15,414 bases of DNA, taken from contig RFJX01000112.1 in NCBI GenBank assembly GCA_003694425.1, forward strand, positions 1 to 15,414, read 5' to 3'. Of this stretch, positions 1,764 to 14,701 are shown in pieces. This DNA comes from Gammaproteobacteria bacterium. Its GTDB lineage: Bacteria; Pseudomonadota; Gammaproteobacteria; J113. Position numbers and translations under genes: made by a program. Under the pieces are notes generated by a model. It ran no database searches. It saw nothing but the letters and a program-made list of their open reading frames with translations, and was not told where the DNA came from. The first letter of the stretch is position 1. Each line of letters starts with the position of its first letter.

Positions 1764-3391
1764 GGCTGGATCAGCTCCTCCGCGACGGGCGACTCGAGGG
1801 AACCGGGGGTATCGAAGTCCTGGAGCACACCGGCATCGGGCATCTCGACTTCGGTCACCGCATCATCATGACGGTAGAGGAGCCGCCTGGCCCCGGCGTC
1901 GCCGTCCAGGAGCAGCATCTCGTCGAGGAAACGCCGGGACCAGAGTACCGGGTTCCCGCGTTTGCCCTGGTAGACCGGCACGCAGATCTCGCGCCCGCTG
2001 TCCGGGTCGAAGGCGGCGACCAGCCGCTCCACCGATTCCCTCGAGAGGCGGGGCATGTCTCCCAGGCAGACGAGTACCGCCTCGGCGTTGTCGTCCACCT
2101 GGGAGACCCCCGCGATGAGAGAGGTACTGAGCCCTTCCCGGTAGCGCGGATTGTGGACGAACTCCACCTGATGGTGTTTGAGCGCGGCCTCGATCTGCCG
2201 CTGCTGATGACCGGTGACGACCAGGATGCGGTCGATGAAGGGTGTCTCCAGGGCGCGCACCACCTGCTCGACCATCGGCCGGCCAGCGACCTCGAGCAGC
2301 AGCTTGTTCGCCGCTCCCATGCGTCTTGACCGACCGGCCGCGAGGACGATGGCGGTAACGCTGCGTGCCCTGCGGACCATCCGCTCGTCCCCGCCGGCAC
2401 GATGTTGCGGGCGTTCGGGTATCTCGCCCAGCAGACCGCCGATCCCCATGCGCATGATCTCCCGGGAGGTGACATTCAGGCCTGCGGCGAGCCGCTCCAG
2501 CACCATGTCGAAGCCGTTGTATTTCGGCGACCGGGCGCAGCCGGGCATTCCCAGCACATGGACGCCTTCGCAACGGGCCAGCAGGAGCAGGTTGCCCGGG
2601 TCCACCGGCATGCCGAAGTGCAGGATCTCTCCTCCCGTGCGCGTCACCGCCATGGGCACCACGTCCCGGCGATCCACCACGGCGGAGGCGCCCGAGACGA
2701 CGATCAGGTCGACCCCGTCATCGATCAGGTGCAGGATGGCCCGGCTGACCTGTCCGGATTCGTGGTCGCAGCGGATCTCCTTCACCAGCCGCCCTTCGAG
2801 GCGGGCCAGGCGCCGGGAGAAGACCTTCGAGGTCTTGTCCTGCAGGGCCTGCCTGGGCCGTCCGAGCGAGGTCTGGATGAGCCCCGCCTTCAGCCCGGTG
2901 AAGGGGAGCACCCGGACCAGCCCTCCCGGCCCTGCGGCGGCCACGCAGTCGACCACCATCTTTCCGGGCACCGCATAGGGAATGACCTTGATGGTGGCCA
3001 CGAGCTCATCCCGGGAGACCACCCGGAAGGGTGGCAGGGTGGCGACGGTGAGCGCCTCGTGCACCAGGTTGACCGCCTCCAGTCGCTCCCGGTCCAAAGT
3101 CAGCAACCCGCGGTGCGAGGCCCTGAGATTGCAGCGCCCGGTACGCGCCCGGTCCAGGGTCACTCCGGCTCCCGACAGGACTTCGGCCACGGTGGTTGCG
3201 GCCTGGTCCTCGCCGACATCATCCTCACCGGGGATGGCCACCGTCACTCTCGTCGCGCCCGCCCGGATCAGGGCCTCCATGGCCGCCTCGTCCAGTACCG
3301 TACCCTTGCGCAACACCCCCTCTTCCACCGGAACGCTGTGGGCGAGGATCGCCCCCCTGGCGCGAGCGACGGGGAGTTCCCGGTACTCCAT
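1760..3391 (-). CDS. Molybdopterin-binding domain fused to a MobA/MocA-like nucleotidyltransferase
   Basis: The 543-residue protein has two domains. Residues 1 to about 335 resemble the MoaB/MogA/CinA-type molybdopterin-binding fold, with VDLIVVSGASAVVDRRD near 227-243 and the GMPGCARSPKYNGFD block near 281-295. Residues about 345-530 are a MobA/MocA-type NTP transferase with LAAGRSRRMGAANKLLL (350-366), LGDMP (443-447), GKRGNPVLW (477-485) and DGDAGAR. Such fusions are known and are expected to attach a nucleotide (CMP or GMP) to molybdopterin for a molybdoenzyme; the nucleotide cannot be read here. The start is ATG at 3391, with GTG at 3394 as an equally placed alternative; both follow a GGGGGTGA ribosome site. 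It is coupled to the AraC gene by a 4-bp overlap. No molybdoenzyme gene is in the window. Confidence 0.88.
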   Translation of the reverse strand: MEYRELPVARARGAILAHSVPVEEGVLRKGTVLDEAAMEALIRAGATRVTVAIPGEDDVGEDQAATTVAEVLSGAGVTLDRARTGRCNLRASHRGLLTLDRERLEAVNLVHEALTVATLPPFRVVSRDELVATIKVIPYAVPGKMVVDCVAAAGPGGLVRVLPFTGLKAGLIQTSLGRPRQALQDKTSKVFSRRLARLEGRLVKEIRCDHESGQVSRAILHLIDDGVDLIVVSGASAVVDRRDVVPMAVTRTGGEILHFGMPVDPGNLLLLARCEGVHVLGMPGCARSPKYNGFDMVLERLAAGLNVTSREIMRMGIGGLLGEIPERPQHRAGGDERMVRRARSVTAIVLAAGRSRRMGAANKLLLEVAGRPMVEQVVRALETPFIDRILVVTGHQQRQIEAALKHHQVEFVHNPRYREGLSTSLIAGVSQVDDNAEAVLVCLGDMPRLSRESVERLVAAFDPDSGREICVPVYQGKRGNPVLWSRRFLDEMLLLDGDAGARRLLYRHDDAVTEVEMPDAGVLQDFDTPGSLESPVAEELIQP

Positions 3392-3401
3392 CACTTCACC
3401 C

Positions 3402-3518: not shown

Positions 3519-5951
3519 TCATATCGGTTCCGACTCCAGCGGCACGGACGCTGCCGCCCGCGAGCCCCGGGCCGCCCGGGTGATGAATCGCGGCTTGAGG
3601 ATGTCCACCCAGGCAGGGATGAGGAAGATGGCCGCGCAGGCGTTCAGCACCAGCATGATGATCAGGAGGCGGGCGGAGTCGGCCTGGAAACGCAGATCGG
3701 AGATCAGCACCCACATGATGATGCCGCCGATGAGGGTGGTGGCCGTGAAGGTGATGGCCACCCCGGTAGTCGCCACGGCCCGGCGGATGGCCTCCTGGAG
3801 GTCGCCCACGATCTCCATCTCTTCGCGGATCCGGTCCATCATGTAGATGGAGTAGTCCACCCCCAGTCCGATGCCCACCGCGATCATGGGAACGGTGTTG
3901 ACGTTGAGGCCCATCCCCAGCAGATACATGCAGGCATAGCTCAGGGTGGTCGCGAAACCCATGGAGATCAACATCATGAAACCGGCATGGAAAGAGCGGT
4001 AGAACATCATGGTGATGGCCAGGACCAGCGCCAGCACCGTGGGTATCACCACCTGATGGGTCTTGTATACCTCCTCGTTGATGCCCGCGGTCACCCCCAC
4101 CGGCCCGCCGGCCAGGTCGATGTGCAGGCCCTCGATCCGGCTCCCCACCTGGGCCGTCCACTCCTTGGCCATGTGGATCGCCCGGCGGATGGTCTGCCCC
4201 GTGTGGTCCTTGTAGTAGAAGACCATGTTGGCCAGCCGGTTGTCGGTATCGACATATTGCTGGAGGGCGTTGGGGATGGGGGCCGACATCATGTACATGT
4301 ACATCAGTCCTCCCACTTCGGACTCGCGGTTCGGCACCACGGCCCAGCGCGGGTCGTCGTTGCGGGTGAGCTGGTTGACCGTGGTTATCAGGTTGGGCAG
4401 GCCCTTCACGCCCCCGAGGGTCTGATCCAGCATCATGTAGGACTGGAAGTCCTCCAGCGCCTTGACCACCTCGGGCCGCTTGATCCCCCCCTTCTCGTCG
4501 GTGCGGGCGATGATGAACATCTCCTCGGACCCGGGGAAGAGCCGGTTGATCTCGGCCGAGGAGACGTTGAAGTCGTGATCACGATAGAGCAGCGGGGAGC
4601 CTGGTTCCTGTTCGCCGACCTGGACCTTGGTACCCATGATGGCCCCGGTAACCATGATCCCGAAGCCGATCAGCAGCATGACTTTCGAACGTGTCGGGGT
4701 ACCGGTCAGCTCCGCCAGCTTCGGGAACAGATTGCGGACTAATGTGTGCTTTATCGCGGTGCTCCTCGGGGTCGGCAGGAGGGCGAGGAGCATCGGCACC
4801 ATGATGAGCACCGTGACCAGCATGCTCAGCGCCCAGAAGGAGGCATAGACCGCCATCTTGTCGTTGATGGGGACCGAGCCGAGCCCGATGAGGAACAGGG
4901 CGGCGGCATCACAGATGATGGCCAGGGCGCCGGGGCGGAAGAGGGCGTTGAAGGTGTTGCGCGAGGCCGGGATCCGGTCGTGGGTGCGGCTGAGCTCGAA
5001 GAAGTAGCGCTCCACCTTCTGGATCCCGTGTGACAGCGCCCGCGCGGAGATGAGGAAGGGCACGACCAGCAGCAGGGGGTCCAGATTGTAGTCCATGACC
5101 CCCATGAAGCCGACGCCCCAGACGCTCGTCACCACCATCCCGAACAGGGGCAGCAGGACACCGTAGAAGCGCCGGGTATAGACGATCAGGATGACCAGGA
5201 CGATGAGCAGCGTGTAGAGGAAGATCTCCATGATCTGGACGCTGTAGGAATCGACCCAGCCGACCAGCACCGGATGGCCGGTGGCGTAGATCTTCACCCC
5301 GGGCGCCGCCTCGCGCTGGCGGATCTGCTGGATCTGGTCGAAGACCTTCCCGTAGTCCAGCTGTCCTTCGTTGAGGGTGCCCTTGATCAGGGCCGCCTTG
5401 AGATCGGGCGAGACCAGCACGCCATAGACCTGGGGATTGGCCAGGACGTCGCTGCGCATGGCTTCGAGTTCTTCCTCCGTATAGCGGCCGATGGTGGGTG
5501 CATCACCACCGCCTCCGGAGGCCTGGTGGTTGCCGTGGTGGGGGTCGTAGTAGGACTCGGAGGTGACCGACCCGTCCTGGGTCATGTAGATCTTGCGGGT
5601 ATTGCGGTGGGTGAGGCTGGTGACCAGGTTGTGGTTGATGTTGTCGACGCTGTCCAGGGCCTGGGTGATGCGGTGGATACGCCCCAGGGTCTCCTCGGTG
5701 AAGATGTCACCCTCCTCCACCGCCACCGCCAGGGTGACGATGTTGGCCCCGCCGAAGGTATCCCGGATGCTGTTGTGGAGGACGATGTAGGGGTGCTCCT
5801 GCGGCAGCAGATCCGCGAAATCGGAGAGCATCTTGACGGCGGGGATCTGCCAGGCAAAGAAGGCCGTAACCAGAAAGATCACGGAAAGGACCAGCTTCCG
5901 GTAATCGAACAGCAGATTTCCGAAGCGGTAAAAGAACTTCTCCGTATCCAC
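3519..5951 (-). CDS. RND-superfamily (MMPL/patched-like) exporter, paired with the Ycf48-like lipoprotein
   Basis: This 810-residue inner-membrane protein has the duplicated RND/MMPL plan. TM1 lies at about 20-38, followed by a periplasmic loop to about 235. A TM bundle occupies 240-395, TM7 about 424-440, a second periplasmic loop runs to about 633, and the last TM bundle covers 634-780. The second bundle carries GIGLGVDYSIYMMD (693-706), whose Asp sits in the usual proton-relay helix. The matching helix in the first half reads FLISARALSHGIQ and has no equivalent Asp. The first loop contains a His/Gly-rich insert (DPHHGNHQASGGGG, 136-149). The start is GTG at 5951, 4 bp after the Ycf48-like stop, with GGAGG just upstream. 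RND members of this type, next to a Ycf48-like protein, occur in proteobacterial operons with DUF1329 and DUF1302 proteins. Cargo is unknown, probably hydrophobic. Confidence 0.92.
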   Translation of the reverse strand: MDTEKFFYRFGNLLFDYRKLVLSVIFLVTAFFAWQIPAVKMLSDFADLLPQEHPYIVLHNSIRDTFGGANIVTLAVAVEEGDIFTEETLGRIHRITQALDSVDNINHNLVTSLTHRNTRKIYMTQDGSVTSESYYDPHHGNHQASGGGGDAPTIGRYTEEELEAMRSDVLANPQVYGVLVSPDLKAALIKGTLNEGQLDYGKVFDQIQQIRQREAAPGVKIYATGHPVLVGWVDSYSVQIMEIFLYTLLIVLVILIVYTRRFYGVLLPLFGMVVTSVWGVGFMGVMDYNLDPLLLVVPFLISARALSHGIQKVERYFFELSRTHDRIPASRNTFNALFRPGALAIICDAAALFLIGLGSVPINDKMAVYASFWALSMLVTVLIMVPMLLALLPTPRSTAIKHTLVRNLFPKLAELTGTPTRSKVMLLIGFGIMVTGAIMGTKVQVGEQEPGSPLLYRDHDFNVSSAEINRLFPGSEEMFIIARTDEKGGIKRPEVVKALEDFQSYMMLDQTLGGVKGLPNLITTVNQLTRNDDPRWAVVPNRESEVGGLMYMYMMSAPIPNALQQYVDTDNRLANMVFYYKDHTGQTIRRAIHMAKEWTAQVGSRIEGLHIDLAGGPVGVTAGINEEVYKTHQVVIPTVLALVLAITMMFYRSFHAGFMMLISMGFATTLSYACMYLLGMGLNVNTVPMIAVGIGLGVDYSIYMMDRIREEMEIVGDLQEAIRRAVATTGVAITFTATTLIGGIIMWVLISDLRFQADSARLLIIMLVLNACAAIFLIPAWVDILKPRFITRAARGSRAAASVPLESEPI

Positions 5952-5955
5952 TGCC

Positions 5956-6939
5956 TCAGCCTCCCCGGAAGTCCCCGCCGATCACGGCGACGCTGTTGCT
6001 CCTTGGCAGGATCCTGGCCAGATAGCCGTTCTGTCCCACCACGAAGAATTCGTGCTCGTCGGCCGGATAGAGTCCGACGATGTAGAGCCGGACCTTGCCG
6101 CCGTAATCGACAGGGGTCCACTGCTCCCCTTCCCGCCTCAGGATCACCCCTTCCCGTCCGACCACGTAGAGCTCGCTGCCCACCGGATGGATGCCGTAGA
6201 GGGTGGCGCGGGTCCCCGTTCGCTCCTGCTTCCAGCTCCGCCCGCCATCCTCCGTCCGGAGCACCGAGCCGGCCAGACCCACGACCCAGCCATGTTCCCG
6301 GTCGCTGAAATACAGGTCCTGAGGATAGAAGTGGCCGGGGATTTCGGCATCCCGGTTCCAGCTCTGCCCGCCATCGGACGACCGCAGCAGGGTTCCGAAC
6401 TCACCAACGATGAGCAGGTTGTCGGCATCGAAGATCTGGATCCCGTTGAGGATGGCATCCTCGTCGAGTGACCGGACCTGCCAGTTCCGGCCCAGGTCAT
6501 CACTGCTGGCGATGGTGGTGAAGCTTCCCACCGCCCACAACCGGTTGTCCGGTCCGCAGCCGACCGCCTGCATGGTCTCTTCGGTGTCGATCTGGCGCCG
6601 CTCCCAGTTCGCGCCCCCGTTCGTGCCGATCCAGACCCCGGCCATGGTATCGAGGGCGACGAAGGTGCCATCGGGGCAGGCGGTCACGTCGATGAAGGAG
6701 GGAAAGCCCTCGAGTCTCTGACGCTGCCACTGCCTCCCGCCGTCGCCGGAATGGAGCAGGACCCCGCCCCGGCCCACCACCACCACGGCGTCGCCGCTGA
6801 CCTGGACATCCTGGAAGAAATCGGTCCGCCGGACCGGGTCTTCCTTGCTCATCTCCACGGCAGAAACATCCAGTGGGGCCTCACATCCGCACAGCAGTGA
6901 GACCGCCAGCAGGAGAGGGATGAAGAGGAGTGATCTCAT
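5956..6939 (-). CDS. Ycf48-like seven-bladed beta-propeller lipoprotein
   Basis: The frame is open further upstream, but ATG 6939 gives a proper signal peptide (MRSLLFIPLLLAVSLLCGC) with a lipobox ending at Cys19, so I chose it (327 residues). The +2 residue is Glu, so retention in the inner membrane is not forced. The mature part holds seven propeller units of the VVGxxGxLLRSxDGGxxW type, starting roughly at AVVVVGRGGVLLHSGDGG, FVALDTMAGVWIGTNGG, LWAVGSFTTIASSDD, LLIVGEFGTLLRSSDGG, GWVVGLAGSVLRTEDGG, LYVVGREGVILRR and FFVVGQNGYLAR. This is the Ycf48/Hcf136 fold, best known as a photosystem II assembly factor. In non-photosynthetic bacteria relatives sit beside RND exporters, as here, and probably act as periplasmic partners or assembly factors for the pump. 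Confidence 0.9.
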   Translation of the reverse strand: MRSLLFIPLLLAVSLLCGCEAPLDVSAVEMSKEDPVRRTDFFQDVQVSGDAVVVVGRGGVLLHSGDGGRQWQRQRLEGFPSFIDVTACPDGTFVALDTMAGVWIGTNGGANWERRQIDTEETMQAVGCGPDNRLWAVGSFTTIASSDDLGRNWQVRSLDEDAILNGIQIFDADNLLIVGEFGTLLRSSDGGQSWNRDAEIPGHFYPQDLYFSDREHGWVVGLAGSVLRTEDGGRSWKQERTGTRATLYGIHPVGSELYVVGREGVILRREGEQWTPVDYGGKVRLYIVGLYPADEHEFFVVGQNGYLARILPRSNSVAVIGGDFRGG

Positions 6940-7302
6940 GAGTCTACCCCGTGTCCGGACAAGTCCCTTTGCATCATGCGGAGGCCATCCGTAGCGCAGT
7001 GACTGGTGGGACGCCTGCGCGGGCAGGCACAGCCGGATCCCGAAAGAGGAAGGAGACGCTACACTCCGGTGCTGGCAGGGTGCCGGAGTCTGACCCTGTC
7101 CCGGAGCCGACCGCCCACCCCCTCCCGGAGAAGGGTACAACAGATCCCGGCTGTATCCGGAAGATCGGGTTCATATGTTCAGGATCCTCTGGTACCGCAA
7201 CATCAACCATACGGTTGCGTATGCAGTTTAGGTAATGGTTCACGGGAATACAAGGTACGGCCGGAATACCGCCCTGTCAGTCAACAGTCATGCACGCGCA
7301 GA
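6940..7302. other. 363-bp non-coding stretch upstream of the Ycf48/RND genes
   Basis: No convincing gene lies here. The overlapping small frames on both strands lack start sites with a Shine-Dalgarno and look unlike any protein I know. The stretch separates the terminator of the sulfide operon from the Ycf48-like gene and is where the promoter of the leftward exporter operon should be. It is less GC-rich around 7170-7250. A weak minus-strand promoter candidate is TTGCGG (7200-7195) with 17 nt to CATATG (7177-7172), just downstream of the inverted repeats at 7204-7223. A long 5' leader would then precede the lipoprotein gene. Confidence 0.4.
7204..7223. promoter_or_regulatory. Two overlapping inverted repeats, possible operator of the Ycf48/RND operon
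   Basis: CAACC-ATAC-GGTTG (7204-7217) and CATACG-GTTG-CGTATG (7208-7223) share bases and both have 4-nt spacers. They sit directly upstream of the weak minus-strand promoter candidate. The arrangement looks like a binding site for a dimeric regulator or two competing hairpins. Which protein would bind is not visible. Confidence 0.35.
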
Positions 7303-7303
7303 C

Positions 7304-7328
7304 AAAAAAAGCGGGCCGGAAGGCCCGC
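7304..7328 (-). terminator. Intrinsic terminator of the ArsR/SQR/DUF2892 operon
   Basis: The perfect 7-bp stem GCGGGCC (7311-7317) / GGCCCGC (7322-7328) has a 4-nt loop. On the minus strand it is followed by seven T residues (A-run 7304-7310 on plus). It lies 27 bp past the DUF2892 stop and is a textbook rho-independent terminator for the leftward operon. Confidence 0.92.
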
Positions 7329-7355: not shown

Positions 7356-7559
7356 CTACTGGAAGGCCGGGCCCGGCCTCAGTCCGGTGGCCTTGAGGAT
7401 CCTGGCCAGCGGACAGAAGCCGGTGAAGGCGGCCTGGAGCATGTTGGCGCCGATGAAGGCGGTGAACCAGAGCCAGTAGATGGAATGGATCTGGGACAGC
7501 AGCAGACTGAGCAGGATCATGCTGCCGGCGAACGCGAATACCATGCGATCGATGTTCAT
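7356..7559 (-). CDS. DUF2892 (YgaP transmembrane-type) small membrane protein
   Basis: This 67-residue protein is mostly hydrophobic, with two predicted membrane helices (about residues 6-22 and 27-45) and the family ending [19 protein letters not shown]2892 proteins are the membrane part of YgaP-type sulfurtransferases, or stand alone as here. In E. coli, ygaP is controlled by the ArsR-type YgaV, and the same pairing appears in this operon. A role in handling sulfide or persulfide at the membrane is likely, but no reaction is established for the stand-alone form. GAGAGAGG lies about 8 nt before the ATG, and the gap to the upstream SQR-like gene is 21 bp. A single Cys (about residue 49) in the conserved GFCP turn is the only candidate reactive residue. 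Confidence 0.88.
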
Positions 7560-7580
7560 CCTTAAGACCTCTCTCTTTCT

Positions 7581-8867
7581 TCAGTCCGTCTTGCACATCT
7601 TGATTTTCTCGATCCCCAGCATCTTGAGGATGCTGCGCTCGTAGATCGGATCGGTGGAACCTTTCTTCACCTTGCGCAGGAAGTATTTCTCGAAGCCGAT
7701 CTTGGCCAGGTGGACCCATTTGCCCTGGCGGGTCCAGGTGACGTTGCGCGGAGGGATCTGGGGAATGGCGACGAAGGCCACACCCGTATCCCCCAGATCG
7801 GCCAGGCAGACCGCGCTCCAGGTCGGCACATGGTGGGGTTCCCGCCCCTCCAGCTCTGCCTGGAGGTTGTTGACCGTGGCGCAGACCATCGACTCGATCA
7901 TGTAGCCGGTCTTCGGCACACCCACCGGGACCGGGGTCGGCTCGATCGGCGGGATCGCGACGCAGACCCCGACCGCGTAGATATTGGGGAAGGCGGGATT
8001 GCGCTGATGCTGGTCGATGAGTACGAAGCCGCGCGGATTGACCAGCCCCTCGATCCCACAGACCGCATCGACCCCGGTGAAGGCCGGGAGCACCATCGAA
8101 TAGCTGAAGGGCAGCTCGTGCCTCTTCTTCTCGTTGCCCTCCTCGTCGAGCTCGGTGACGTGCATCCGGCCCTCCTCGACCCGGTCGATCCGGGCGTTGG
8201 TGATCCAGTTGATGTGACGCTCGCGCAGGGCGTCTTCCAGCACCCCCTTGGAATTCCCGACGCCGGCCAGTCCGAGATGGCCGATATAGGGCTCGGAGGT
8301 GACGAAGGTCATCGGCACCCGGTCCCGGATGCGCCGCTTGCGCAGGTCGGCATCGGCGATGAAGGCGTATTCGTAGGCCGGGCCGAAACAGGAGGCGAGC
8401 TGCGCCGCCCCCACGACCATCGGACCGGGTTCGTCCACGAAGCGCTGCCATTTTTCCGCCGCCCTGACTGCGTGATCGACGTGGCAGATCGATTCGGTGT
8501 GCCCCTGGATCGGACCCAGCCCCTCAATCTCCTCGAAGGCGAGGCGGGGGCCGGTGGCGATCACCAGATAGTCATAGCGGAGTTCGCCACCGTCACCGAG
8601 CTCGAGGCGGTTGTCGGCCGGGTGTACGCGCTTCACCCCTGCGGCCGAGAATTCGATCCCCTTGCGGCCCAGACACTCCTTCAACGGCACCTTGATGGCA
8701 TCGGGCTTGCGCCAGTTGACCGCCACCCAGGGGTTGGAGGGGACGAAGTGGAAGGTCGGGCTGTCAGAAACCACGGTGATACGGTGCTGTTTTGGCAATG
8801 CAGCCCTGAGTTCGTAGGCCATCGAAACCCCGCCGATCCCGGCTCCCATGATGATGATGTGTGCCAT
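7581..8867 (-). CDS. sqr: Sulfide:quinone oxidoreductase-like FAD flavoprotein
   Basis: The 428-residue protein belongs to the two-dinucleotide-binding FAD/NAD-linked reductase family. An N-terminal GAGIGG (8-13) binds FAD, YLVIATGP lies at 100-107, and a second FAD contact is NIYAVGVCVAI near 295-304. Cysteines at 128 (ESICHV), 160 (QLASCFGPAYEYAF) and 354 (SAVCLADLGDTG) match in context, and almost in number, the three functional cysteines I recall for Acidithiobacillus ferrooxidans SQR (128, 160, 356). SQR oxidises sulfide to a cysteine-bound persulfide or polysulfide and passes electrons to quinone. There is no signal peptide, which argues for a membrane-attached SQR and against periplasmic flavocytochrome c. 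The C-terminal amphipathic, Lys-rich region (about 385-428) would suit membrane attachment. AGGAGG sits 5 nt before the ATG. It lies between a persulfide-type regulator and DUF2892, which fits sulfide oxidation or detoxification. Confidence 0.85.
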   Translation of the reverse strand: MAHIIIMGAGIGGVSMAYELRAALPKQHRITVVSDSPTFHFVPSNPWVAVNWRKPDAIKVPLKECLGRKGIEFSAAGVKRVHPADNRLELGDGGELRYDYLVIATGPRLAFEEIEGLGPIQGHTESICHVDHAVRAAEKWQRFVDEPGPMVVGAAQLASCFGPAYEYAFIADADLRKRRIRDRVPMTFVTSEPYIGHLGLAGVGNSKGVLEDALRERHINWITNARIDRVEEGRMHVTELDEEGNEKKRHELPFSYSMVLPAFTGVDAVCGIEGLVNPRGFVLIDQHQRNPAFPNIYAVGVCVAIPPIEPTPVPVGVPKTGYMIESMVCATVNNLQAELEGREPHHVPTWSAVCLADLGDTGVAFVAIPQIPPRNVTWTRQGKWVHLAKIGFEKYFLRKVKKGSTDPIYERSILKMLGIEKIKMCKTD

Positions 8868-8916
8868 TGATCCTCCTCTCTTGTCTTCCCACCCGTGACC
8901 CTTCGCCGAGGGTCGT

Positions 8917-9222
8917 TCAATCCCCTCCGTTGCTGCAGTAGAGCCCGTAGAGCGCCTGGAGGACGCTCGCGGCCTTGTCGTCCTTGAGCGAGTAGTAGAC
9001 CTTCTGCGCCTCCCGGCGGCAGCTCACGATCCCCTCCTCGCGCAGCCGCGCAAGGTGCTGGGAGAGCGCCGACTGCCCCAGCCCTACCAGTTCCTCCAGC
9101 TCGCCTACCGCATGCTCGCCCCTGACCAGGTGGCACAGGATCATCAACCGGTGCGGGTTGGCCAGGGACTTGAGCAGCCGGGACGCGGCCTGGGCGTTTT
9201 CCTGCATCTGCTCGATTTTCAT
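8917..9222 (-). CDS. ArsR/SmtB-family repressor of the BigR/SqrR/YgaV persulfide-sensor type
   Basis: This 101-residue winged-helix regulator starts with a helix, then LLKSLANPHRLMILCHLV, the recognition region GLGQSALSQHLARLREEGIV (48-67), and the wing RREAQKVYYSL. Cys30 and Cys96 are 66 residues apart, in the LMILC and LYGLYC contexts. This equals the Cys41/Cys107 (SqrR) and Cys42/Cys108 (BigR) spacing of persulfide sensors, and YgaV is similar. No ArsR metal-site ELCVCDL-type motif is present. A third cysteine, Cys68, lies at the wing. In this family, oxidation by sulfane sulfur links the two cysteines and releases DNA. The start is uncertain: ATG 9222 lies inside the operator/-10 box and lacks a ribosome site. 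ATG 9207 (Met6) is the alternative and still keeps all cysteines. It is divergent from the RND operon. Confidence 0.92.
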   Translation of the reverse strand: MKIEQMQENAQAASRLLKSLANPHRLMILCHLVRGEHAVGELEELVGLGQSALSQHLARLREEGIVSCRREAQKVYYSLKDDKAASVLQALYGLYCSNGGD

Positions 9223-9248
9223 ATTAGTTGAATCTAATATTAGTCCAA
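9221..9248 (-). promoter_or_regulatory. Candidate sigma-70 promoter for the ArsR/SQR/DUF2892 operon
   Basis: On the minus strand TTGGAC (9248-9243) is followed by 16 nt and TAATAT (9226-9221). Each box matches four of six consensus bases. It lies wholly inside the inverted-repeat operator. It would place the transcript start near 9214, downstream of the annotated regulator ATG, which favours initiation at Met6 or a near-leaderless mRNA. Confidence 0.5.
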
Positions 9249-9256
9249 GCTAATAT
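9228..9256 (+). promoter_or_regulatory. Candidate sigma-70 promoter for the RND/LolA-like/barrel/cytochrome operon
   Basis: TTGAAT (9228-9233) is followed by exactly 17 nt and TAATAT (9251-9256); TATTAT at 9254-9259 is a second -10 option. The -35 box is the spacer of operator repeat 1, and the -10 box is the right arm of repeat 2. Repressor binding would therefore block it. Transcription would begin near 9263, about 45 nt before the ATG chosen for the RND gene. Confidence 0.55.
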
Positions 9257-9291
9257 TATGTCAAGCCAATGGCCGAAATTGAACGCCTTAC

Positions 9292-9318
9292 AGGAGCAGA
9301 ATGAAAAAATGGCGCTGA
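9292..9318 (+). promoter_or_regulatory. Ribosome site and five-codon mini-ORF overlapping the RND start
   Basis: AGGAG (9292-9296) lies 4 nt before an ATG at 9301 that opens a five-codon frame (MKKWR, stop at 9316-9318), and 12 nt before the in-frame RND ATG at 9309. The mini-ORF overlaps the RND start out of frame. It may be coincidence, or a translational coupling device that tunes the exporter level. Confidence 0.35.
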
Positions 9319-11984
9319 AGACCCGGATAATCGACTACTCCCTGGACCACCCCAGGCTGATCACGGCCCTGATGGCCTTCACCACCCTCCTGCTGGTGGC
9401 GATGGCGGCGCTGCCGAGCATCTGGCCGGAGCGCTTTCCGATGCTGCATTCGATCCGGATCGATACCGATCCGGAGAACATGCTCTCGCCGGAGGAGCCG
9501 GTACGCCTGTTCCACAATGCCGCCAAGAAGGAGTTCTCCCTGCACGACATCGTGGTGGTCGGGATCGCGAACGAAAGGGACCCGGACGGTGTCTTCAACC
9601 CCGCCTCGTTGCAGCGGATCTACCGGCTCACGGAGTTCATCAGGACCCTGCGCTGGCCCTCTGTGGAAGCCCCGGAGCGGGTCGAGGGGGTGATCGAGGC
9701 GGACCTCATCGCGCCCTCGACGGTGGACAACATCGAGCAGGGTGGGCTAGGCTCGGTCCGCTTCTCCTGGCTGATGCCGGAGCCACCGAAGACCCGTGAG
9801 CAGGCGCGGGCGATCCGTGACAAGGCCCTGCGCCTGCCCTTCCTGAAGGACACCATGGTCTCCTCCGACGGAAGGGCGATCGCCCTCTATCTGCCGCTCT
9901 CGCGCAAGGACCTCTCCTGGCGGGTGCGCAAGGAGATCCTCGGGTTCACGCGGGACTGGGAGATGGCAGGTGATCAGGTCCACATCACCGGCCTGCCGGT
10001 GGCCGAGGACACCTTCGGGGTGGAGATGTTCATGCAGATGGCCATCTCCGCGCCGCTGGCGATGCTGGTCATCTTCCTGCTCCTGTGGTGGTTCTTCAAG
10101 CGCCTGGACCTGGTCGCCTCCCCCATGATCGTGGCCATGGTCTGTGCCCTATCGACCATGGCGCTGCTGATCGTCAGTGGCAAGACCATCCACATCATGA
10201 GCTCGATGATCCCGATCTTCATCATGCCCATCGCGGTGCTGGACGCGGTCCACATCCTCTCCGAGTTCTACGACCGCTATCCCCGCTACCGGGATCGGCG
10301 CAAGGCGATCTCGGAGGTGATGCACACCCTCTACGCCCCGATGCTCTTCACCTCGCTGACCACCGTCGCCGGCTTCGCCTCGCTGGCCCTCACCCCCATC
10401 CCCCCGGTCCAGGTCTTCGGGGTCTTCGTCGCCATCGGCGTGTTGCTGGCCTGGCTCTGGACCGTCACCTTCATCCCCGCCTTCGTCATGTTCATCCCGG
10501 AGGAGAAGCTCGAAGGCTACGGCCACGGTGCCGGCGGGGAGCAGAAGGAGAGTGGTCTGCTGGCCCGCGCCCTTCCCGCGATGGGCCACCGGGTCGTACG
10601 CAACCCCGGGGTGGTGCTGGTCGCCACCCTGCTCATCGCCGTGGTGGCGGTGTGGGGGATCACGCAGATCCGGATCAACGACAACCCGATCAAGTGGTTC
10701 CGGGCCGACCACCCCATCCGGGTGGCGGACCGGGTTCTCAACCGCCACTTCGGCGGTACCTACATGGCCTACCTCGAACTCTCCGCGCCGGAGAAGGAGG
10801 AGGATTTCGATTCCTGGCTGACCGGCCTGGAGGGGCGCCTGCGCGCCGCCATGGAGCAGGCCGATGAAACCGGCGCGGTCCCCTACGGGGCCCTGCGCGA
10901 CCACCTGCTGGAGCTGCGCGGCAAGGTACGAGACAAGGACAAACTGCTGGATGCACTGAGCGAGTGGGGCAACCGGCAGGCCGATTCCACGGAGGATGAC
11001 GCCCTCTACGACGCCTGGCAGGAGGCCCTCACCCTGCTGGCTGCCGAGCGCCAGCGCGGTGAGGTTTTCAAGCAACCGCAGGTACTGCGCTGGATGGCGG
11101 GGTTGCAGTCACACCTCACCAGCGGCCCCCTGGTGGGCAAGGCCAACTCGCTGCCCGACCTGGTCAGGACGGTGCACCGGGAGCTGCTCCTCGGCGCGGA
11201 AAAGGAATTCCGGATCCCCGACACCCCGCAGGCGGTGGCCCAGACCCTGCTCACCTTCCAGAACAGCCACCGTCCCCAGGACCTGTGGCACTTCGTCACC
11301 CCGGACTACCGCAAGAGCGTGATCTGGCTCCAGCTCAAGAGCGGCGACAACCGGGACATGGAGGCCGTGGTGCGCCAGGTGGAGGACTATTTCCGCGACA
11401 ACCCGCCCCCGCAGGGACTTGAACACCACTGGTTCGGCCTCACCTACATCAACGTCGTCTGGCAGAACAAGATGGTGTGGGGCATGGCGCGCTCCTTCCT
11501 CGGCTCCTTCCTGGTGGTGCTGGTGATGATGGTATTCCTCTTCCGTTCGCCACTGACCGGGATACTCTCGATGGTCCCGCTGACCGTCACCATCGGGCTC
11601 ATCTATGGCATCATCGGCATCATCGGCAAGGACTACGACATGCCGGTGGCGGTGCTCTCCGCTCTCAGCCTGGGACTGGCGGTGGACTATGCCATCCACT
11701 TCCTGGCCCGCTCGCGCATGGCCGTGGCCCGGGCCGGCACGTGGATGGCCGCGGTGGACGAGGTGTTCGGCGAGCCGGCCCGGGCCATCGCCCGCAACGC
11801 CATCATCCTCGGCGCCGGCTTCCTGCCCCTGCTGGCGGCGCCGCTGGTCCCCTACCAGACGGTGGGGATCTTCATCGCCGCCATCATCCTCAGCGCCGGG
11901 GTGATCACCCTCGTCGTGCTCCCGGCGCTGCTGACGCTGCTGCAACGATTCCTGTTTCCCGCAACCGGAGGAACCCAGTCATGA
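9309..11984 (+). CDS. RND-superfamily exporter of the RND/LolA-like/barrel operon
   Basis: The 891-residue protein has the two-fold RND layout. TM1 is at about 17-37, followed by a periplasmic loop starting IDTDPENMLSPEEPVRLF. A TM bundle lies at 247-395, TM7 at about 434-452, a long second loop runs to about 725, and a TM bundle covers 727-880. Candidate proton-relay helices are MPIAVLDAVHILSEF (306-320) and LGLAVDYAIHF (788-798), each with an Asp. The second loop has a long charged helical stretch (about 497-605). The reading frame extends upstream to 9228 with ATG 9258 also possible. Both lie in the operator/promoter core without a ribosome site, so I chose ATG 9309. The stop overlaps the next start (ATGA, 11981-11984). 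It probably moves a hydrophobic compound or lipid from the inner membrane toward its periplasmic partner. Confidence 0.92.
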   Translation: MALKTRIIDYSLDHPRLITALMAFTTLLLVAMAALPSIWPERFPMLHSIRIDTDPENMLSPEEPVRLFHNAAKKEFSLHDIVVVGIANERDPDGVFNPASLQRIYRLTEFIRTLRWPSVEAPERVEGVIEADLIAPSTVDNIEQGGLGSVRFSWLMPEPPKTREQARAIRDKALRLPFLKDTMVSSDGRAIALYLPLSRKDLSWRVRKEILGFTRDWEMAGDQVHITGLPVAEDTFGVEMFMQMAISAPLAMLVIFLLLWWFFKRLDLVASPMIVAMVCALSTMALLIVSGKTIHIMSSMIPIFIMPIAVLDAVHILSEFYDRYPRYRDRRKAISEVMHTLYAPMLFTSLTTVAGFASLALTPIPPVQVFGVFVAIGVLLAWLWTVTFIPAFVMFIPEEKLEGYGHGAGGEQKESGLLARALPAMGHRVVRNPGVVLVATLLIAVVAVWGITQIRINDNPIKWFRADHPIRVADRVLNRHFGGTYMAYLELSAPEKEEDFDSWLTGLEGRLRAAMEQADETGAVPYGALRDHLLELRGKVRDKDKLLDALSEWGNRQADSTEDDALYDAWQEALTLLAAERQRGEVFKQPQVLRWMAGLQSHLTSGPLVGKANSLPDLVRTVHRELLLGAEKEFRIPDTPQAVAQTLLTFQNSHRPQDLWHFVTPDYRKSVIWLQLKSGDNRDMEAVVRQVEDYFRDNPPPQGLEHHWFGLTYINVVWQNKMVWGMARSFLGSFLVVLVMMVFLFRSPLTGILSMVPLTVTIGLIYGIIGIIGKDYDMPVAVLSALSLGLAVDYAIHFLARSRMAVARAGTWMAAVDEVFGEPARAIARNAIILGAGFLPLLAAPLVPYQTVGIFIAAIILSAGVITLVVLPALLTLLQRFLFPATGGTQS

Positions 11985-12796
11985 AACGGACGCTTCCCCT
12001 TCTCTTCTCCCTGCTGTGGCTCGGCTCCACCGCCGCATGGGCGCAGGCGCCGGGCGTGGACGAGATCGTCAACCGGGCCAACCTCATGGCCTACTACCAG
12101 GGCAAGGATGGCCGGGCGAAGGTCCACATGACCATCACCGACAGCCAGGGACGCAAGCGTGAAAGGGAGATGACCATCCTGCGCCGCGACACCCCGGACA
12201 GCGACGACCTGGCCGGTGGCGCCTATCGCGGCGAACAGAAGTTCTACGTCTACTTCCACCGCCCGGCCGACGTCAACAAGATGGTCTTCATGGTCTGGAA
12301 GCACCTGGACCGGGACGACGACCGCTGGCTCTACCTGCCGGCGCTGGACCTGGTCAAGCGCATCGCCGCCACCGACAAGCGCACCAGCTTCGTCGGCTCC
12401 GACTTCTACTACGAGGACGTCTCCGGCCGCGACATCGACGAGGACGACCACGAGCTGGTGAAGACCACGAACAACTACTACGTCCTGAAGAACACCCCGA
12501 AGGACCCGGCGTCGGTGGAGTTCAGCTATTACCTGGCCTACATCCACAAGCAGAGCTTCATTCCGGTCCAGGTCGAGTACTACGACAAAAACGGCGAGAA
12601 GTACCGGGTGGCGAAGGCCCTGGAGGTGAAGACCATCCAGGGCTATCCGACCGTGGTGCGCGCCCAGATGGAGAGCCTGAAGGCCGGCAGCAGGACCGTG
12701 ATGGAATACACCGACGTGCGCTACGACATCGGCCTGCCGGAAGAGATCTTCACCGAGCGCTACCTGCGCCGGGCGCCGAGGAAATATCTGCGGTGA
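11981..12796 (+). CDS. LolA-fold 'outer membrane lipoprotein-sorting' periplasmic protein (PF17131-like)
   Basis: This 271-residue protein has a clear signal peptide, with likely cleavage after TAAWA (residue 21). The mature part has the hallmarks of the LolA-like family often annotated as outer membrane lipoprotein-sorting protein: KFYVYFHRPADVNKMVFMVW (87-106), DDDRWLYLPALDLVKRI (112-128) and SFVGSDFYYEDVSGRD (136-151). The fold is an open beta-barrel that shields a hydrophobic cargo. Members are commonly encoded next to RND exporters and differ from true LolA and from DUF1329. ATG 11981 has GGAGGA (11967-11972) 8 nt upstream and overlaps the RND stop by 4 bp. Its own stop overlaps the next start, so the three proteins are made in step. 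The likely role is a periplasmic shuttle between pump and outer-membrane barrel. The cargo is not identifiable. Confidence 0.9.
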   Translation: MKRTLPLLFSLLWLGSTAAWAQAPGVDEIVNRANLMAYYQGKDGRAKVHMTITDSQGRKREREMTILRRDTPDSDDLAGGAYRGEQKFYVYFHRPADVNKMVFMVWKHLDRDDDRWLYLPALDLVKRIAATDKRTSFVGSDFYYEDVSGRDIDEDDHELVKTTNNYYVLKNTPKDPASVEFSYYLAYIHKQSFIPVQVEYYDKNGEKYRVAKALEVKTIQGYPTVVRAQMESLKAGSRTVMEYTDVRYDIGLPEEIFTERYLRRAPRKYLR

Positions 12797-14319
12797 TCCG
12801 GCCCGCGCGCGCCTGCCACGCCCTCCTGATCGCCAGCCTCGGCGCTCCGGCCCTGGCCGGGGAGCCGGCATTGCCCGCCGGCCTGGACCCGTTCCAGGAG
12901 AGCGGCGGGGAGGCGGTGGCGGAGCCGCCGCTTCCCGGCGGCCTGGACGGTCCCGCCGCCACGGAGACTACCGGGGAACCGGCGCTGCCCGGAGGGCTCT
13001 CACCCGGCACCGCGCCGACGGAGGGCGCTGATGAAGGCCCCGTCCTGCCGGCCGGGCTGGAGGGTGGCGAGGCGATCGCCCCAGAGACGGAGGGGGAAGA
13101 AGCGGCGGGCCTGCCGGGCGGGTCGGTCAGCGGCTTCCTCGAACAGCGGGCCGGCCACCGGGTGGTGGGCGACGCCACCGAGCGCGGGATCTCCCTGAAC
13201 GAGACCCGCTTCCAGCTGGAGTGGGAGGCGTACCTCGCCCGCGCCACCCTCCGGCTCACCACCGATCTGCTCTACGACAACGTCCCGCAGACCCAGCGCC
13301 TGGAACTGAACGAGGGGCGCGGTTTCCTGGACCTGCGCGAGGCGAGCATCGCCCTGCCCCTGACCGGCTTCATGGACCTCAAGGCGGGGCGCCAGATCCT
13401 CACCTGGGGAGTGGGCGATCTGCTGTTCATCAACGACCTCTTCCCCAAGGACTGGAACGCCTTCTTCATCGGGCGGGACGTGGAGTACCTCAAGGCCCCC
13501 TCGGACGCCCTGAAGCTCTCCCTCTATTCGCGGTGGGCGAATCTCGACCTGGTCTGGACCCCGCAGTTCGATCCCGACCGCTTCATCGACGGGCGTCGCC
13601 TCTCCTACTTCGCCCCGACACTCGGGCGGATCGCCGGGCGCGACGCCGTGGTCCGCCCCCTTACCCCCGACACCCTCCTGCGGGACGAGGAGTGGGCGCT
13701 GCGCCTGTACCGCAACTTCGGCCCCTGGGAGGCCGCCCTCTACGCCTACTCCGGCTTCTGGAAGAGTCCGGCCGGGTCCGATGCCGCCACCGGCCTTGCC
13801 ACCTTCCCGCCCCTCTCGGTATACGGGGCGAGCCTGCGCGGCCCCGTGGGCAAGGGCCTGGTCAGCGCCGAGTTCGGCTGGTACGACTCCCGCGACGACC
13901 GCACCGGCGACGACCCCCTGGTGCGCAACGGCGAGCTTCGTTTCCTGGTCGGCTACGAGCAGGAGCTGGCGCCGGACTTCACCGGCGGGATCCAGTATTA
14001 TGCGGAGCATATGCTGGATCACGACGCCTATCTGCGTACCCTGCCGACGGGCCTGCCCGCCGCCGACGAGACCCGTCATCTCGTCACCCTGCGGCTCACC
14101 CTGCTGACCCATGACCAGAACCTGAGCTGGTCCCTGTTCGCCTACCTCTCTCCCTCCGATCGGGATTACTACCTGCGGCCACGGGTGGCCTACAAGGTCG
14201 ATGACCATTTCACCATCGAGGCGGGGGCCAACCTGATGGGCGGCGCGAAGGTGTACACTTTCTTCGGTCAGCTCGAGGACAACAGCAATGTCCATTTCTC
14301 GATTCGTTACGGCTTCTGA
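12793..14319 (+). CDS. Outer-membrane beta-barrel protein with N-terminal LPxGL repeat tether
   Basis: The start is GTG at 12793, overlapping the stop of the LolA-like gene (GTGA). The 508-residue product has a signal peptide (cleavage near ALA, residue 22). A low-complexity Gly/Pro/Glu/Ala stretch (23-110) follows with five LPxG motifs at 27, 47, 65, 85 and 107. Then comes a long region of alternating amphipathic strands rich in aromatic residues (about 112-508), ending in RYGF with a terminal Phe, the usual outer-membrane barrel signal. Examples of barrel strands are FMDLKAGRQILTWGVGDLL and WALRLYRNFGPWEAALYAY. It resembles DUF1302/porin-like barrels found with RND and LolA-like proteins, but I cannot assign a named family. 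The likely role is outer-membrane delivery or exit for the RND/LolA-like pathway, with the repeat tail projecting into the periplasm. Confidence 0.85.
   Translation: MIRPARACHALLIASLGAPALAGEPALPAGLDPFQESGGEAVAEPPLPGGLDGPAATETTGEPALPGGLSPGTAPTEGADEGPVLPAGLEGGEAIAPETEGEEAAGLPGGSVSGFLEQRAGHRVVGDATERGISLNETRFQLEWEAYLARATLRLTTDLLYDNVPQTQRLELNEGRGFLDLREASIALPLTGFMDLKAGRQILTWGVGDLLFINDLFPKDWNAFFIGRDVEYLKAPSDALKLSLYSRWANLDLVWTPQFDPDRFIDGRRLSYFAPTLGRIAGRDAVVRPLTPDTLLRDEEWALRLYRNFGPWEAALYAYSGFWKSPAGSDAATGLATFPPLSVYGASLRGPVGKGLVSAEFGWYDSRDDRTGDDPLVRNGELRFLVGYEQELAPDFTGGIQYYAEHMLDHDAYLRTLPTGLPAADETRHLVTLRLTLLTHDQNLSWSLFAYLSPSDRDYYLRPRVAYKVDDHFTIEAGANLMGGAKVYTFFGQLEDNSNVHFSIRYGF
12871..13122 (+). repeat. 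Protein-level tandem repeat, five LPxG(L) units
   Basis: Five copies of LPAGL/LPGGL/LPGGS are spaced 20, 18, 20 and 22 residues apart, usually preceded by small or acidic residues (EPA, EPP, EGP). The linkers are Glu/Ala/Gly/Thr-rich and vary in sequence, so this is a short-linear-motif array and not an exact DNA duplication. It lies just after the signal peptide of the barrel protein. Confidence 0.85.
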
Positions 14320-14344
14320 ACCCCAACAAGAGGAGGTACCCACC

Positions 14345-14656
14345 ATGAAGAAGGTCCTTTCCGTCGCAATCCTCGGCCTCGGCCTCGGGATCGGCACCAC
14401 TGCCCTGGCGGCCGACGGTGCCGAGCTCTACAAGAGCAAGGGCTGCGTCTCCTGCCACGGTGAGGGCGGGACCAAGCCCATCGCCCCCAATTTCCCCAAG
14501 ATCGCCGGCCAGAACGAGGCCTACCTGCTGCAGCAGATGAAGGACATCAAGAGTGGCGCCCGCGCCAACGGCCAGTCGGCCATGATGAAGGGGATCGTCG
14601 CCGGGGTGAGCGACGAGGAGATGGCCGCCATCGCCAAGTGGCTCAGCACCCAGTAA
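14345..14656 (+). CDS. Small monohaem class I cytochrome c (c553-like)
   Basis: This 103-residue protein has a signal peptide cleaved near TALAA (about residue 22). One haem site, CVSCH, lies at 34-38, and Met80 or Met81 in GQSAMMKGIV is the likely distal ligand. The C-terminal helix DEEMAAIAKWLSTQ is typical of cytochrome c4/c553-type domains. ATG 14345 was chosen over an upstream in-frame ATG (14288), because AGGAGG (14331-14336) is 8 nt before it and the signal peptide begins there. It lies 25 bp after the barrel stop and so is probably the last gene of the RND operon. It would carry electrons in the periplasm. An electron partner in the divergent sulfide operon is possible, but SQR normally reduces quinone and not cytochrome c. 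Confidence 0.9.
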   Translation: MKKVLSVAILGLGLGIGTTALAADGAELYKSKGCVSCHGEGGTKPIAPNFPKIAGQNEAYLLQQMKDIKSGARANGQSAMMKGIVAGVSDEEMAAIAKWLSTQ

Positions 14657-14671
14657 GCGGCCACCCCGGCA

Positions 14672-14701
14672 CCACCCCCGCCGGGCTGCCGGCGGGGGTG
14701 G
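14672..14701 (+). terminator. Long GC hairpin after the cytochrome gene
   Basis: A perfect 13-bp stem CCACCCCCGCCGG / CCGGCGGGGGTGG with loop GCTG starts 15 bp after the cytochrome stop. No T-run follows on the plus strand (GCCCGTCCCC) and none flanks it on the other side. It probably ends or stabilises the operon's mRNA, but it is not a canonical intrinsic terminator. Confidence 0.6.

Follow-up and report, generated by a model that had tools for sequence, protein, structure and literature searches.

A candidate persulfide-responsive pump, carrier and barrel system encoded divergently from sulfide:quinone oxidoreductase in a gammaproteobacterium

A single ArsR-family repressor is predicted to control two divergent operons through operator dyads that they share, and persulfide would likely induce sulfide oxidation together with the export of a hydrophobic, probably sulfur-derived, product. 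We put the probability of this reading at about 0.5. The operons lie in a 15,414-nucleotide contig of a gammaproteobacterial metagenome-assembled genome (MAG), referred to here as the window. Genes for ArsR, sulfide:quinone oxidoreductase (SQR) and a YgaP-like transmembrane protein (YgaP-TM) diverge from those for an RND pump, a LolA-like carrier and an outer-membrane barrel. An earlier, sequence-only reading had named these products (DUF2892, SQR, ArsR, RND, LolA-fold, barrel) and a cytochrome c, and all seven genes were found where it had placed them. The features are as follows.

7311 to 7328, minus strand: intrinsic terminator at the end of the ArsR-SQR-YgaP-TM operon (7 pairs, all G-C; tail TTTTTTT)
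7356 to 7559, minus strand: YgaP-like transmembrane protein (DUF2892; PF11127, E 8.5e-14)
7581 to 8867, minus strand: SQR (closest solved structure 3sz0, E 8.3e-158)
8917 to 9222, minus strand: SqrR/BigR-type repressor of the ArsR family, carrying Cys30 and Cys96 (closest solved structures 6o8l and BigR 3pqj)
9223 to 9238, no strand: operator dyad 1, ATTAGTTGAATCTAAT, the same dyad as at the pump promoters of relatives
9239 to 9254, no strand: operator dyad 2, ATTAGTCCAAGCTAAT, abutting dyad 1
9237 to 9264, minus strand: sigma-70-like promoter towards ArsR, overlapping both dyads (TTGACA-16-TAATAT, 10/12 consensus match)
9309 to 11984, plus strand: RND/MMPL pump, HAE3-like, 891 aa (PF03176)
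11981 to 12796, plus strand: periplasmic LolA-like carrier (PF17131, E 2e-59)
12793 to 14319, plus strand: outer-membrane barrel with 18 predicted strands (aa 110-507), a distant DUF1302 relative
12871 to 13059, plus strand: four LPxGL motifs (aa 27, 47, 65 and 85, from the sequence) in the barrel's disordered N-terminal arm
14345 to 14656, plus strand: small c-type cytochrome, here the last gene of the pump operon (PF00034)

The pump most likely starts at the ATG at 9309 (the ORF itself opens at 9228), and the start of the cytochrome c gene was corrected to 14345. The pump and carrier genes overlap by 4 bp, as do the carrier and barrel genes. The cytochrome c had been counted as part of the system; we dropped it, as a CxxCH protein stands beside the barrel in only 1 of 50 relatives' loci. 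A tRNA-Trp call at 13160-13253, inside the barrel gene, was taken as a false positive; an Rfam scan of the whole window at gathering scores gave no matches, there or elsewhere. The window also holds another RND gene paired with a YCF48 gene (3519-7140).

The window ArsR has the two cysteines of SqrR, BigR and YgaV: Cys30 and Cys96 align with cysteines of 6o8l, which we take to be the SqrR structure, and of 3pqj, and the equivalent pair in SqrR is presumably Cys41/Cys107. By sequence it belongs to the same subfamily as BigR and is not BigR itself (108.3 bits against the BigR equivalog NF040642, cut-off 155). Among 35 pump-linked ArsRs, 16 have both sensor cysteines. Cys30 is absent in the other 19 (in 14 of these, all titled Planctomycetota, the cysteines present are Cys90 and Cys96), and the signal may therefore differ in those loci. 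Cys128, Cys160 and Cys354 of SQR align with cysteines of 3sz0 and are presumably the catalytic ones. As to what becomes of the SQR product, soxB and dsrA were not found in the MAG, which is 76 percent complete, and its persulfide dioxygenase match was weak and partial. Thus, as far as this incomplete genome goes, there would be few sinks among those listed.

The 86-bp gap between ArsR and the pump supports the shared operator that the sequence-only reading had proposed. In it, the dyad ATTAG-N6-CTAAT occurs twice, the copies directly adjoining each other (9223-9254), which is above chance, since none of 200 shuffles held two, even with one mismatch allowed. In 80 related loci (1.25 Mb) there are six dyad sites in five loci, and all six lie at the pump promoter (p 2e-9, a value that is too small, as the five loci are kin). 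At two of these five loci (L008 and L012) no ArsR gene was detected nearby. Dyads at pump promoters were seen solely in close gammaproteobacterial relatives. The idea of joint control of the two operons is backed by the predicted shared dyads and by the recurrent neighbourhood described below. Four relatives titled as alphaproteobacterial genera carry, in the gap between ArsR and YgaP-TM, ATTC-N8-GAAT, the site published for SqrR (cited in PMC9774250).

Elsewhere in the MAG, the other exact dyads lie upstream of genes for OsmC, a second YgaP-TM and SulP, all with putative sulfide roles; allowing one mismatch gave one extra site (C231, L165) versus two control hits. Scans of eight further genomes gave the following numbers of dyad sites versus sites of a backward-pattern control: G066, 3/0; G289, 1/0; G279, 6/3; G290, 5/4; G065, 2/2; G291, 1/1; G293, 3/3; and G292, 3/7. 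The control scored in six of the eight (1-7 sites) and in four of these at least equalled the dyad count. Therefore, we used a site only if a sulfur gene, ArsR or the pump lay next to it. In two relatives, both among those where the control equals or exceeds the dyad, a site is flanked by SulP on one side and a persulfide-dioxygenase-like gene on the other (of the two proteins, one was checked). Among the loci viewed in the further genomes, five with dyads (L149, L152, L154, L155 and L160) have no clear sulfur gene adjoining.

The pairing of pump and sulfur genes is not a local accident and recurs, in parts, across several phyla. Relatives were the best 80 of at least 550, chosen by the pump alone. 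When 30 of the 80 loci are left out for short flanks (less than 2 kb upstream or 3 kb downstream), at least one of ArsR, YgaP-TM and SQR is found no more than 3.5 kb from the pump in 40 of the remaining 50 relatives; the overall figure is 57 of 80. None of the three is present in 10 of 50 and 23 of 80, respectively, where two loci with partners only beyond 3.5 kb (L019 and L051) count as having none. In 20 control loci of a second, Ame-like pump family (from 14 genomes, six loci from G090, some short), the same partners were found in 0 of 20, with a search made more sensitive by additional ArsR and YgaP-TM profiles. Greedy gene calling lost part of the YgaP-TM ORFs, which were counted at 29 of 50 loci under the overlap filter and at 34 of 50 once it was lifted; the count of 40 loci with a partner was the same in both cases. 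The sequence-only reading had staked itself on co-occurrence of the two operons in relatives, and in this respect it holds.

ArsR matches are concentrated in the first kb upstream of the pump, with counts per kb upstream of 27, 4, 3, 0, 0, 0, 1, 0, 0 and 0, and downstream one in the first and one in the tenth kb (the far bins are reached by fewer loci). This peak, the empty control family and the conserved operator make it extremely unlikely that the genes are chance neighbours without joint control, a view that would fit the rarity of the complete set and the lack of a significant genome-level tie between pump and SQR. ArsR, YgaP-TM and SQR occur together in only 3 of 80 loci (L011, L031 and L072), usually one or two being present, so the complete set was rejected as a rule. 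Orientation varies as well: of the 35 linked ArsR genes, 11 diverge from the pump and 24 are co-directional with it. Counted over the same 3.5 kb, YgaP-TM accompanies the pump at 38 of the 80 loci and SQR at 11; the majority of loci, and nearly all of those from Planctomycetota, have no SQR at this distance, and most relatives having ArsR or YgaP-TM are without SQR nearby. At genome level, SQR occurs in 6 of the 10 genomes with the pump, against 78 of 265, which is not significant (p 0.07). Of the 10 pump loci in the class sample, six have a partner and two match, by length and gene positions, contigs already among the 80 (L004/L007 and L136/L008). Together, these results mean that the cargo need not be the product of SQR. 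Other sulfur-handling types near the pump in the 80 loci are CoA-disulfide-reductase-rhodanese (7), thioredoxin (5) and OsmC (3), one representative of each being checked. Cultured organisms with a pump locus include Aestuariicella hydrocarbonica (L014), Marinobacter bryozoorum (L017) and Amphiplicatus metriothermophilus (L072).

The best NCBIfam match of the pump is the HAE3 model TIGR00921 (176.5 bits, below the cut-off of 351.9). Its nearest solved structures are HpnN, MmpL4, NPC1, Dispatched and MmpL3, several of which move lipids; the nearest by sequence is HpnN (5khn, E 1.4e-8). Where an HAE1 tripartite pump would have MFP and TolC-type partners, its operon has a PF17131 carrier and a barrel of 18 predicted strands. 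The carrier gene is 3' of the pump in 54 of 57 loci having 3 kb downstream, and carrier and barrel are both present in 50 of 57. The carrier scores 200.8 bits against PF17131 (cut-off 30), and its structure model (pLDDT 88) has LolA3 (9tp6), 4z48 and 3bk5 as top Foldseek matches, with E 1.8e-22 to LolA3. The barrel falls below the DUF1302 cut-off (17.1 bits against 23.2), and a PF06980 annotation is attached to 5 of the 120 sequences nearest to it. Its predicted model is as similar to OprD/Occ channels as to the exporter AlgE; its Foldseek TM-scores are low (0.3-0.5), and VIA-align was also used. The disordered N-terminal arm has repeated P-x-LPxGL motifs, and LPxGL motifs are present in 40 of 62 barrels, in two Hydrogenedentota pumps and, among the 120 nearest barrel sequences (a set that contains the one from the window), in 118. 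Possibly they are docking sites for the carrier common to barrel and pumps. No paper describing LPxGL as an envelope motif was found by title or abstract among open-licence PMC papers.

No published description of the whole sulfide-linked system was among the matches listed from open-licence PMC papers, and several known systems share parts of it. The regulators SqrR, BigR, YgaV and sHdrR are likewise two-cysteine ArsR proteins and act on SQR, persulfide dioxygenase or YgaP-type genes; here, in contrast, the predicted target is a route across the envelope and the dyad is ATTAG-N6-CTAAT, although some relatives of the pump have the SqrR site. RND efflux pumps have been noted in general among neighbours of persulfide-sensing ArsR regulators, and the system is not described in section 2.1 of that source (PMC12423496, in excerpt). 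In Azospira suillum, according to excerpts of PMC5358917, an operon of SQR and an RND-type pump (Dsui_3440-3443) shows high expression while sulfide is being oxidised, a DUF2892 gene at another locus is about 10-fold up, and deletion of the operon left the sulfide oxidation rate unchanged. That pump, however, has a membrane-fusion (MFP) subunit and thus another architecture. HpnN, the hopanoid transporter, has a family model that the pump misses by far (69.8 bits against 751.85), and no hopanoid gene was present among the window genes scanned. The Lol pathway shares the carrier fold, but the window operon has an RND pump and a barrel where Lol has LolCDE and LolB; LolA3 of Porphyromonas has no assigned partner in the excerpt of PMC13103446.

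The closest cassette is AmeABCD of Castellaniella defragrans, a monoterpene efflux system of the HAE3 lineage (excerpts of PMC6394551), which combines an HAE3 pump, a LolA-superfamily (DUF1329) periplasmic protein and a DUF1302 barrel and raises monoterpene tolerance. It has suggested to us that the window system could be a general efflux route for toxic hydrophobics that uses a thiol-based repressor by happenstance. We consider this improbable, since the Ame-like control family lacks ArsR, YgaP-TM and SQR in all 20 loci. Ame also has a second periplasmic protein, AmeC, related to photosystem II assembly factors, and lies in terpene catabolism, whereas the window system has sulfur genes and the LPxGL arm. 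The window cassette has no such YCF48-type protein, and none matched in the 80 pump loci within their limited flanks, compared with its presence at 17 of the 20 control loci; the RND and YCF48 pair at 3519-7140 is more Ame-like than the pump studied here.

A stronger competitor, doubtful but to be taken seriously, is envelope repair, in which the route moves a normal lipid or hydrophobic envelope component, carries no sulfur and is merely induced by membrane-damaging reactive sulfur. The lipid movers among the pump's nearest structures, the LolA-like carrier fold and the scarcity of SQR near the pump all fit. The close tie to YgaP-TM and ArsR, joined in places by genes of the rhodanese, thioredoxin and OsmC types, does not, and no lipid-synthesis family is prominent among the recurrent neighbour clusters (judged by one representative or by eye). 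The route might also run in reverse, so that S8 or another hydrophobic form of sulfur outside the cell is taken in by the barrel and carrier and delivered to the inner membrane for the cell to use, as the likeness to OprD/Occ channels would allow. This is very unlikely, because MMPL and HAE3 pumps of known direction work in export or outward transfer and soxB and dsrA, which could use the sulfur, were not found in the 76 percent complete MAG.

For the preferred reading, joint induction of sulfide oxidation and hydrophobic export, we infer a route in which cargo, direction and docking would be as follows. Sulfide would enter the cell and SQR form polysulfide or persulfide, as homology suggests. 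Sulfane sulfur would then bridge Cys30 and Cys96 of ArsR, by analogy with SqrR, YgaV and sHdrR, freeing both promoters. The RND pump would lift the hydrophobic product out of the inner membrane and pass it to the LolA-like carrier. Candidate cargoes are zero-valent sulfur, for instance S8 or long polysulfide, and a lipid or quinone damaged by sulfur; a sulfur-derived hydrophobic cargo is plausible. With the LPxGL motifs of its long periplasmic arm, the barrel would catch the carrier, which may then unload outward at the 18-strand barrel. A narrower form, held only tentatively, is a dedicated persulfide-induced export of zero-valent sulfur, the MMPL pump extracting S8 or polysulfide from the inner membrane, the LolA-like shuttle taking it across the periplasm and the LPxGL-docking barrel releasing it outside.

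We know of no settled account of how polysulfide or elemental sulfur made by SQR leaves a diderm cell without poisoning its membranes. The system described here is a concrete and widely distributed candidate for this exit, with sensor, operator, pump, carrier and exit channel. The LPxGL arm also suggests a testable mechanism by which a LolA-type shuttle could locate its outer-membrane exit. If zero-valent sulfur is indeed exported, this would be, to our knowledge, the first defined bacterial route that places hydrophobic sulfur outside the cell, and it would be a sulfur export line common to Pseudomonadota, Planctomycetota, Desulfobulbales and Hydrogenedentota.

The ArsR, SQR and YgaP-TM genes of the window form one minus-strand run, and the pump is the first of the plus-strand genes, with overlaps of 4 bp between pump and carrier and between carrier and barrel. 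The features are as follows:

7328-7311, minus strand: strong terminator closing the ArsR-SQR-YgaP-TM run
7356-7559, minus strand: YgaP-TM (DUF2892) gene, 67 aa
7581-8867, minus strand: SQR (sulfide:quinone oxidoreductase) gene
8917-9222, minus strand: ArsR gene
ATG at 9309, plus strand: RND/MMPL pump gene
from 11981, plus strand: LolA-like carrier gene, between pump and barrel
from 12793, plus strand: outer-membrane barrel gene, after the carrier
from 14345, plus strand: small cytochrome c gene, next after the barrel
14672-14701: GC-rich hairpin spotted by eye, 3' of the cytochrome c gene
from 14765: patatin-like gene beyond the hairpin

A tRNA-Trp called by ARAGORN within the barrel gene (13160-13253, minus strand) is likely false; Rfam gave none. 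The window also encodes, at 1760-3394 on the minus strand, a MobA-like nucleotidyltransferase with a weak, below-cut-off N-terminal match of molybdopterin-binding type, and an AraC regulator gene (786-1763) adjoins it.

The 86-bp gap between ArsR and pump holds two abutting 16-bp dyads, ATTAG-N6-CTAAT (9223-9238 and 9239-9254), and a promoter-like TTGACA-16-TAATAT site directed at ArsR passes through both. No further dyad was found in the window at a tolerance of up to one mismatch, and two dyads arose in 0/200 shuffles. Across the whole metagenome-assembled genome (MAG) that holds the window (2.08 Mb, 301 contigs, 76 percent complete), the exact dyad occurred at three further places and its backward control at none. 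Each of the three is a single operator copy directly upstream of a gene:

L144, 1501-1955: OsmC
L145, 1263-1516: second YgaP-TM protein
L146, 1-1138: SulP, with a Sel1-repeat gene on the opposite flank of the dyad

These three genes are candidate members of a sulfide regulon, and on the strength of the conserved sequence we propose that the two operons of the window are jointly regulated.

Relatives were collected on pump similarity alone, giving 80 loci (the top 80 among at least 550; 1,249,482 bases). These contained six exact dyads, none more than 100 bp from a called pump start (two in L007 and one each in L008, L011, L012 and L014, the last from Aestuariicella hydrocarbonica; binomial p 2e-9 for loci that are kin). 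In L008 and L012, SQR or YgaP-TM lies across the dyad-bearing gap and no ArsR was detected. Scanned genomes G065 and G279 have the dyad ahead of an ArsR gene of the window type; in G290 it stands ahead of another gene, judged by eye to be ArsR-like. SulP and a metallo-beta-lactamase protein flank the dyad in the genomes of L009 and L010; the L010 protein, the one checked, is closest to 4ysk/4ysl, of which 4ysk is presumably a persulfide dioxygenase, with ETHE1 lower in the list. The backward control was equally or more frequent in these two genomes (dyad/control 3/3 and 3/7), so this site rests on its neighbours and not on rarity. Another pattern, ATTC-N8-GAAT, is found in the gap at the ArsR/YgaP-TM end in L031, L034, L059 and L072 (L034 reaches a contig end, with no ArsR seen; L072 is from Amphiplicatus metriothermophilus); it is the SqrR site according to PMC9774250. 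It is less specific than the dyad (7 sites near pump starts and 20 elsewhere, p 3e-5), and the two are probably spellings of one operator family.

In this top-80 set, 50 loci extend 2 kb or more upstream and 3 kb or more downstream of the pump, and 40 of the 50 had at least one partner (ArsR, YgaP-TM or SQR) within 3.5 kb: ArsR in 26, YgaP-TM in 29 (34 without the overlap filter) and SQR in 5. Over all 80 loci, 57 had at least one partner, 23 none and 3 all three (ArsR 35, YgaP-TM 38, SQR 11). ArsR matches fell in successive kb upstream of the pump as 27, 4, 3, 0, 0, 0, 1, 0, 0 and 0; downstream there was one in the first kb and one in the tenth. Behind the pump, the carrier followed in 54 of the 57 loci with 3 kb downstream, and carrier plus barrel in 50. 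By the phylum in the record title, a partner was present in Pseudomonadota (22/27), Planctomycetota (18/26), Thermodesulfobacteriota (5/6), Hydrogenedentota (3/5), Bdellovibrionota (3/3), Nitrospirota (1/1), Myxococcota (1/1) and loci with no phylum given (4/5), and absent from Kiritimatiellota (2 loci), Omnitrophota, Verrucomicrobiota, Chloroflexota and Thermoplasmatota (1 each). Other recurrent neighbours, judged from one representative each, were a CoA-disulfide-reductase with rhodanese (7 loci), thioredoxin (5) and OsmC (3); a DUF302 cluster (representative PF03625) lies near the pump in 12 loci (L044:3429-3935 and 11 others), and some recurrent clusters have no evident sulfur link.

The window's second RND pump (3519-5951), with a YCF48-type gene in front, forms an Ame-like pair at 3519-7140 on the minus strand; neither a barrel nor a DUF1329 gene adjoins the pair there. 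Its relatives served as the control: 17/20 control loci had a YCF48-type gene nearby and 0/20 had ArsR, YgaP-TM or SQR (Fisher p 2e-10 for partner linkage, first-pump versus control loci). In a class sample, 6/10 pump loci had a partner, 2/10 apparently being contigs already among the 80, and at the genome level the tie between pump and SQR was not significant (6/10 versus 78/265, p 0.07, own genome excluded).

The closest solved structures to the window ArsR are 6o8l, which we take to be SqrR, and BigR (3pqj). The two cysteines of these proteins are present in it as Cys30 and Cys96; its score is under the BigR equivalog cut-off. The cysteine contexts, MILC30HL and GLYC96, compare with ILC31ML and KNVYC98P of E. 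coli YgaV, between which PMC9774250 describes a tetrasulfide bridge seen after Na2S treatment. The window SQR matches sulfide-quinone reductase 3sz0 over nearly its full length (E 8.3e-158), with cysteines 128, 160 and 354 aligned. Among 35 pump-linked ArsRs, 16 carry Cys30 and Cys96, 5 carry neither pair, and 14, all titled Planctomycetota (e.g., L056, L066 and L086), carry Cys90 and Cys96 and possibly answer to another signal. Beyond Pseudomonadota and Desulfobacterota, the ArsR signal may differ.

The motif LPxGL occurs in 40/62 barrels of related loci, with 103 copies in the disordered N-terminal arm, spaced 9-27 residues apart, versus 1 elsewhere, and in 118 of the 120 barrel sequences nearest to that of the window, counting the window barrel itself. 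Around the 103 copies, P stands two residues before in 100, E three before in 57 and G after in 47. Of the 22 barrels without it, 20 fall in one pump-tree clade (26 rows, support 97); L018 and L048 lie outside. At least two copies within 40 aa were found in 42 of 9,677 scanned ORFs, namely 40 barrels (including L135, L136 and L139) and the Hydrogenedentota pumps of L082 and L084. In these two pumps a variable loop carries three copies near residues 518-553 (repeat stretches 522-555 in L082 and 518-557 in L084); the L023 pump has a single copy outside that loop. The presence of the motif on donor pump and acceptor barrel alike points to the carrier as their shared partner, and LPxGL would be a docking motif.

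We found no description of the pump-carrier-barrel system or of LPxGL in open-licence PMC literature. The closest architecture is AmeABCD, which, according to PMC6394551, has a second periplasmic subunit of photosystem-II-assembly type, whereas the window system is without one. PMC12423496 names RND pumps in general terms among neighbours of sulfane-sulfur ArsRs, which may include the present pump. PMC5358917 describes an SQR operon that contains an MFP-type RND pump and, elsewhere, a DUF2892 gene up about 10-fold under sulfide-oxidising conditions.

In the proposed mechanism, SQR would oxidise sulfide, sulfane sulfur would bridge the ArsR cysteines, and bridged ArsR would release both operons; the pump would then put a hydrophobic product onto the carrier, which would unload it at the barrel, with cargo, direction and docking of the route being our inference. 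In the MAG, with about a quarter of the genome missing, dsrA and soxB were not found and persulfide dioxygenase has a weak, partial match at most, which fits detoxification rather than sulfur use.
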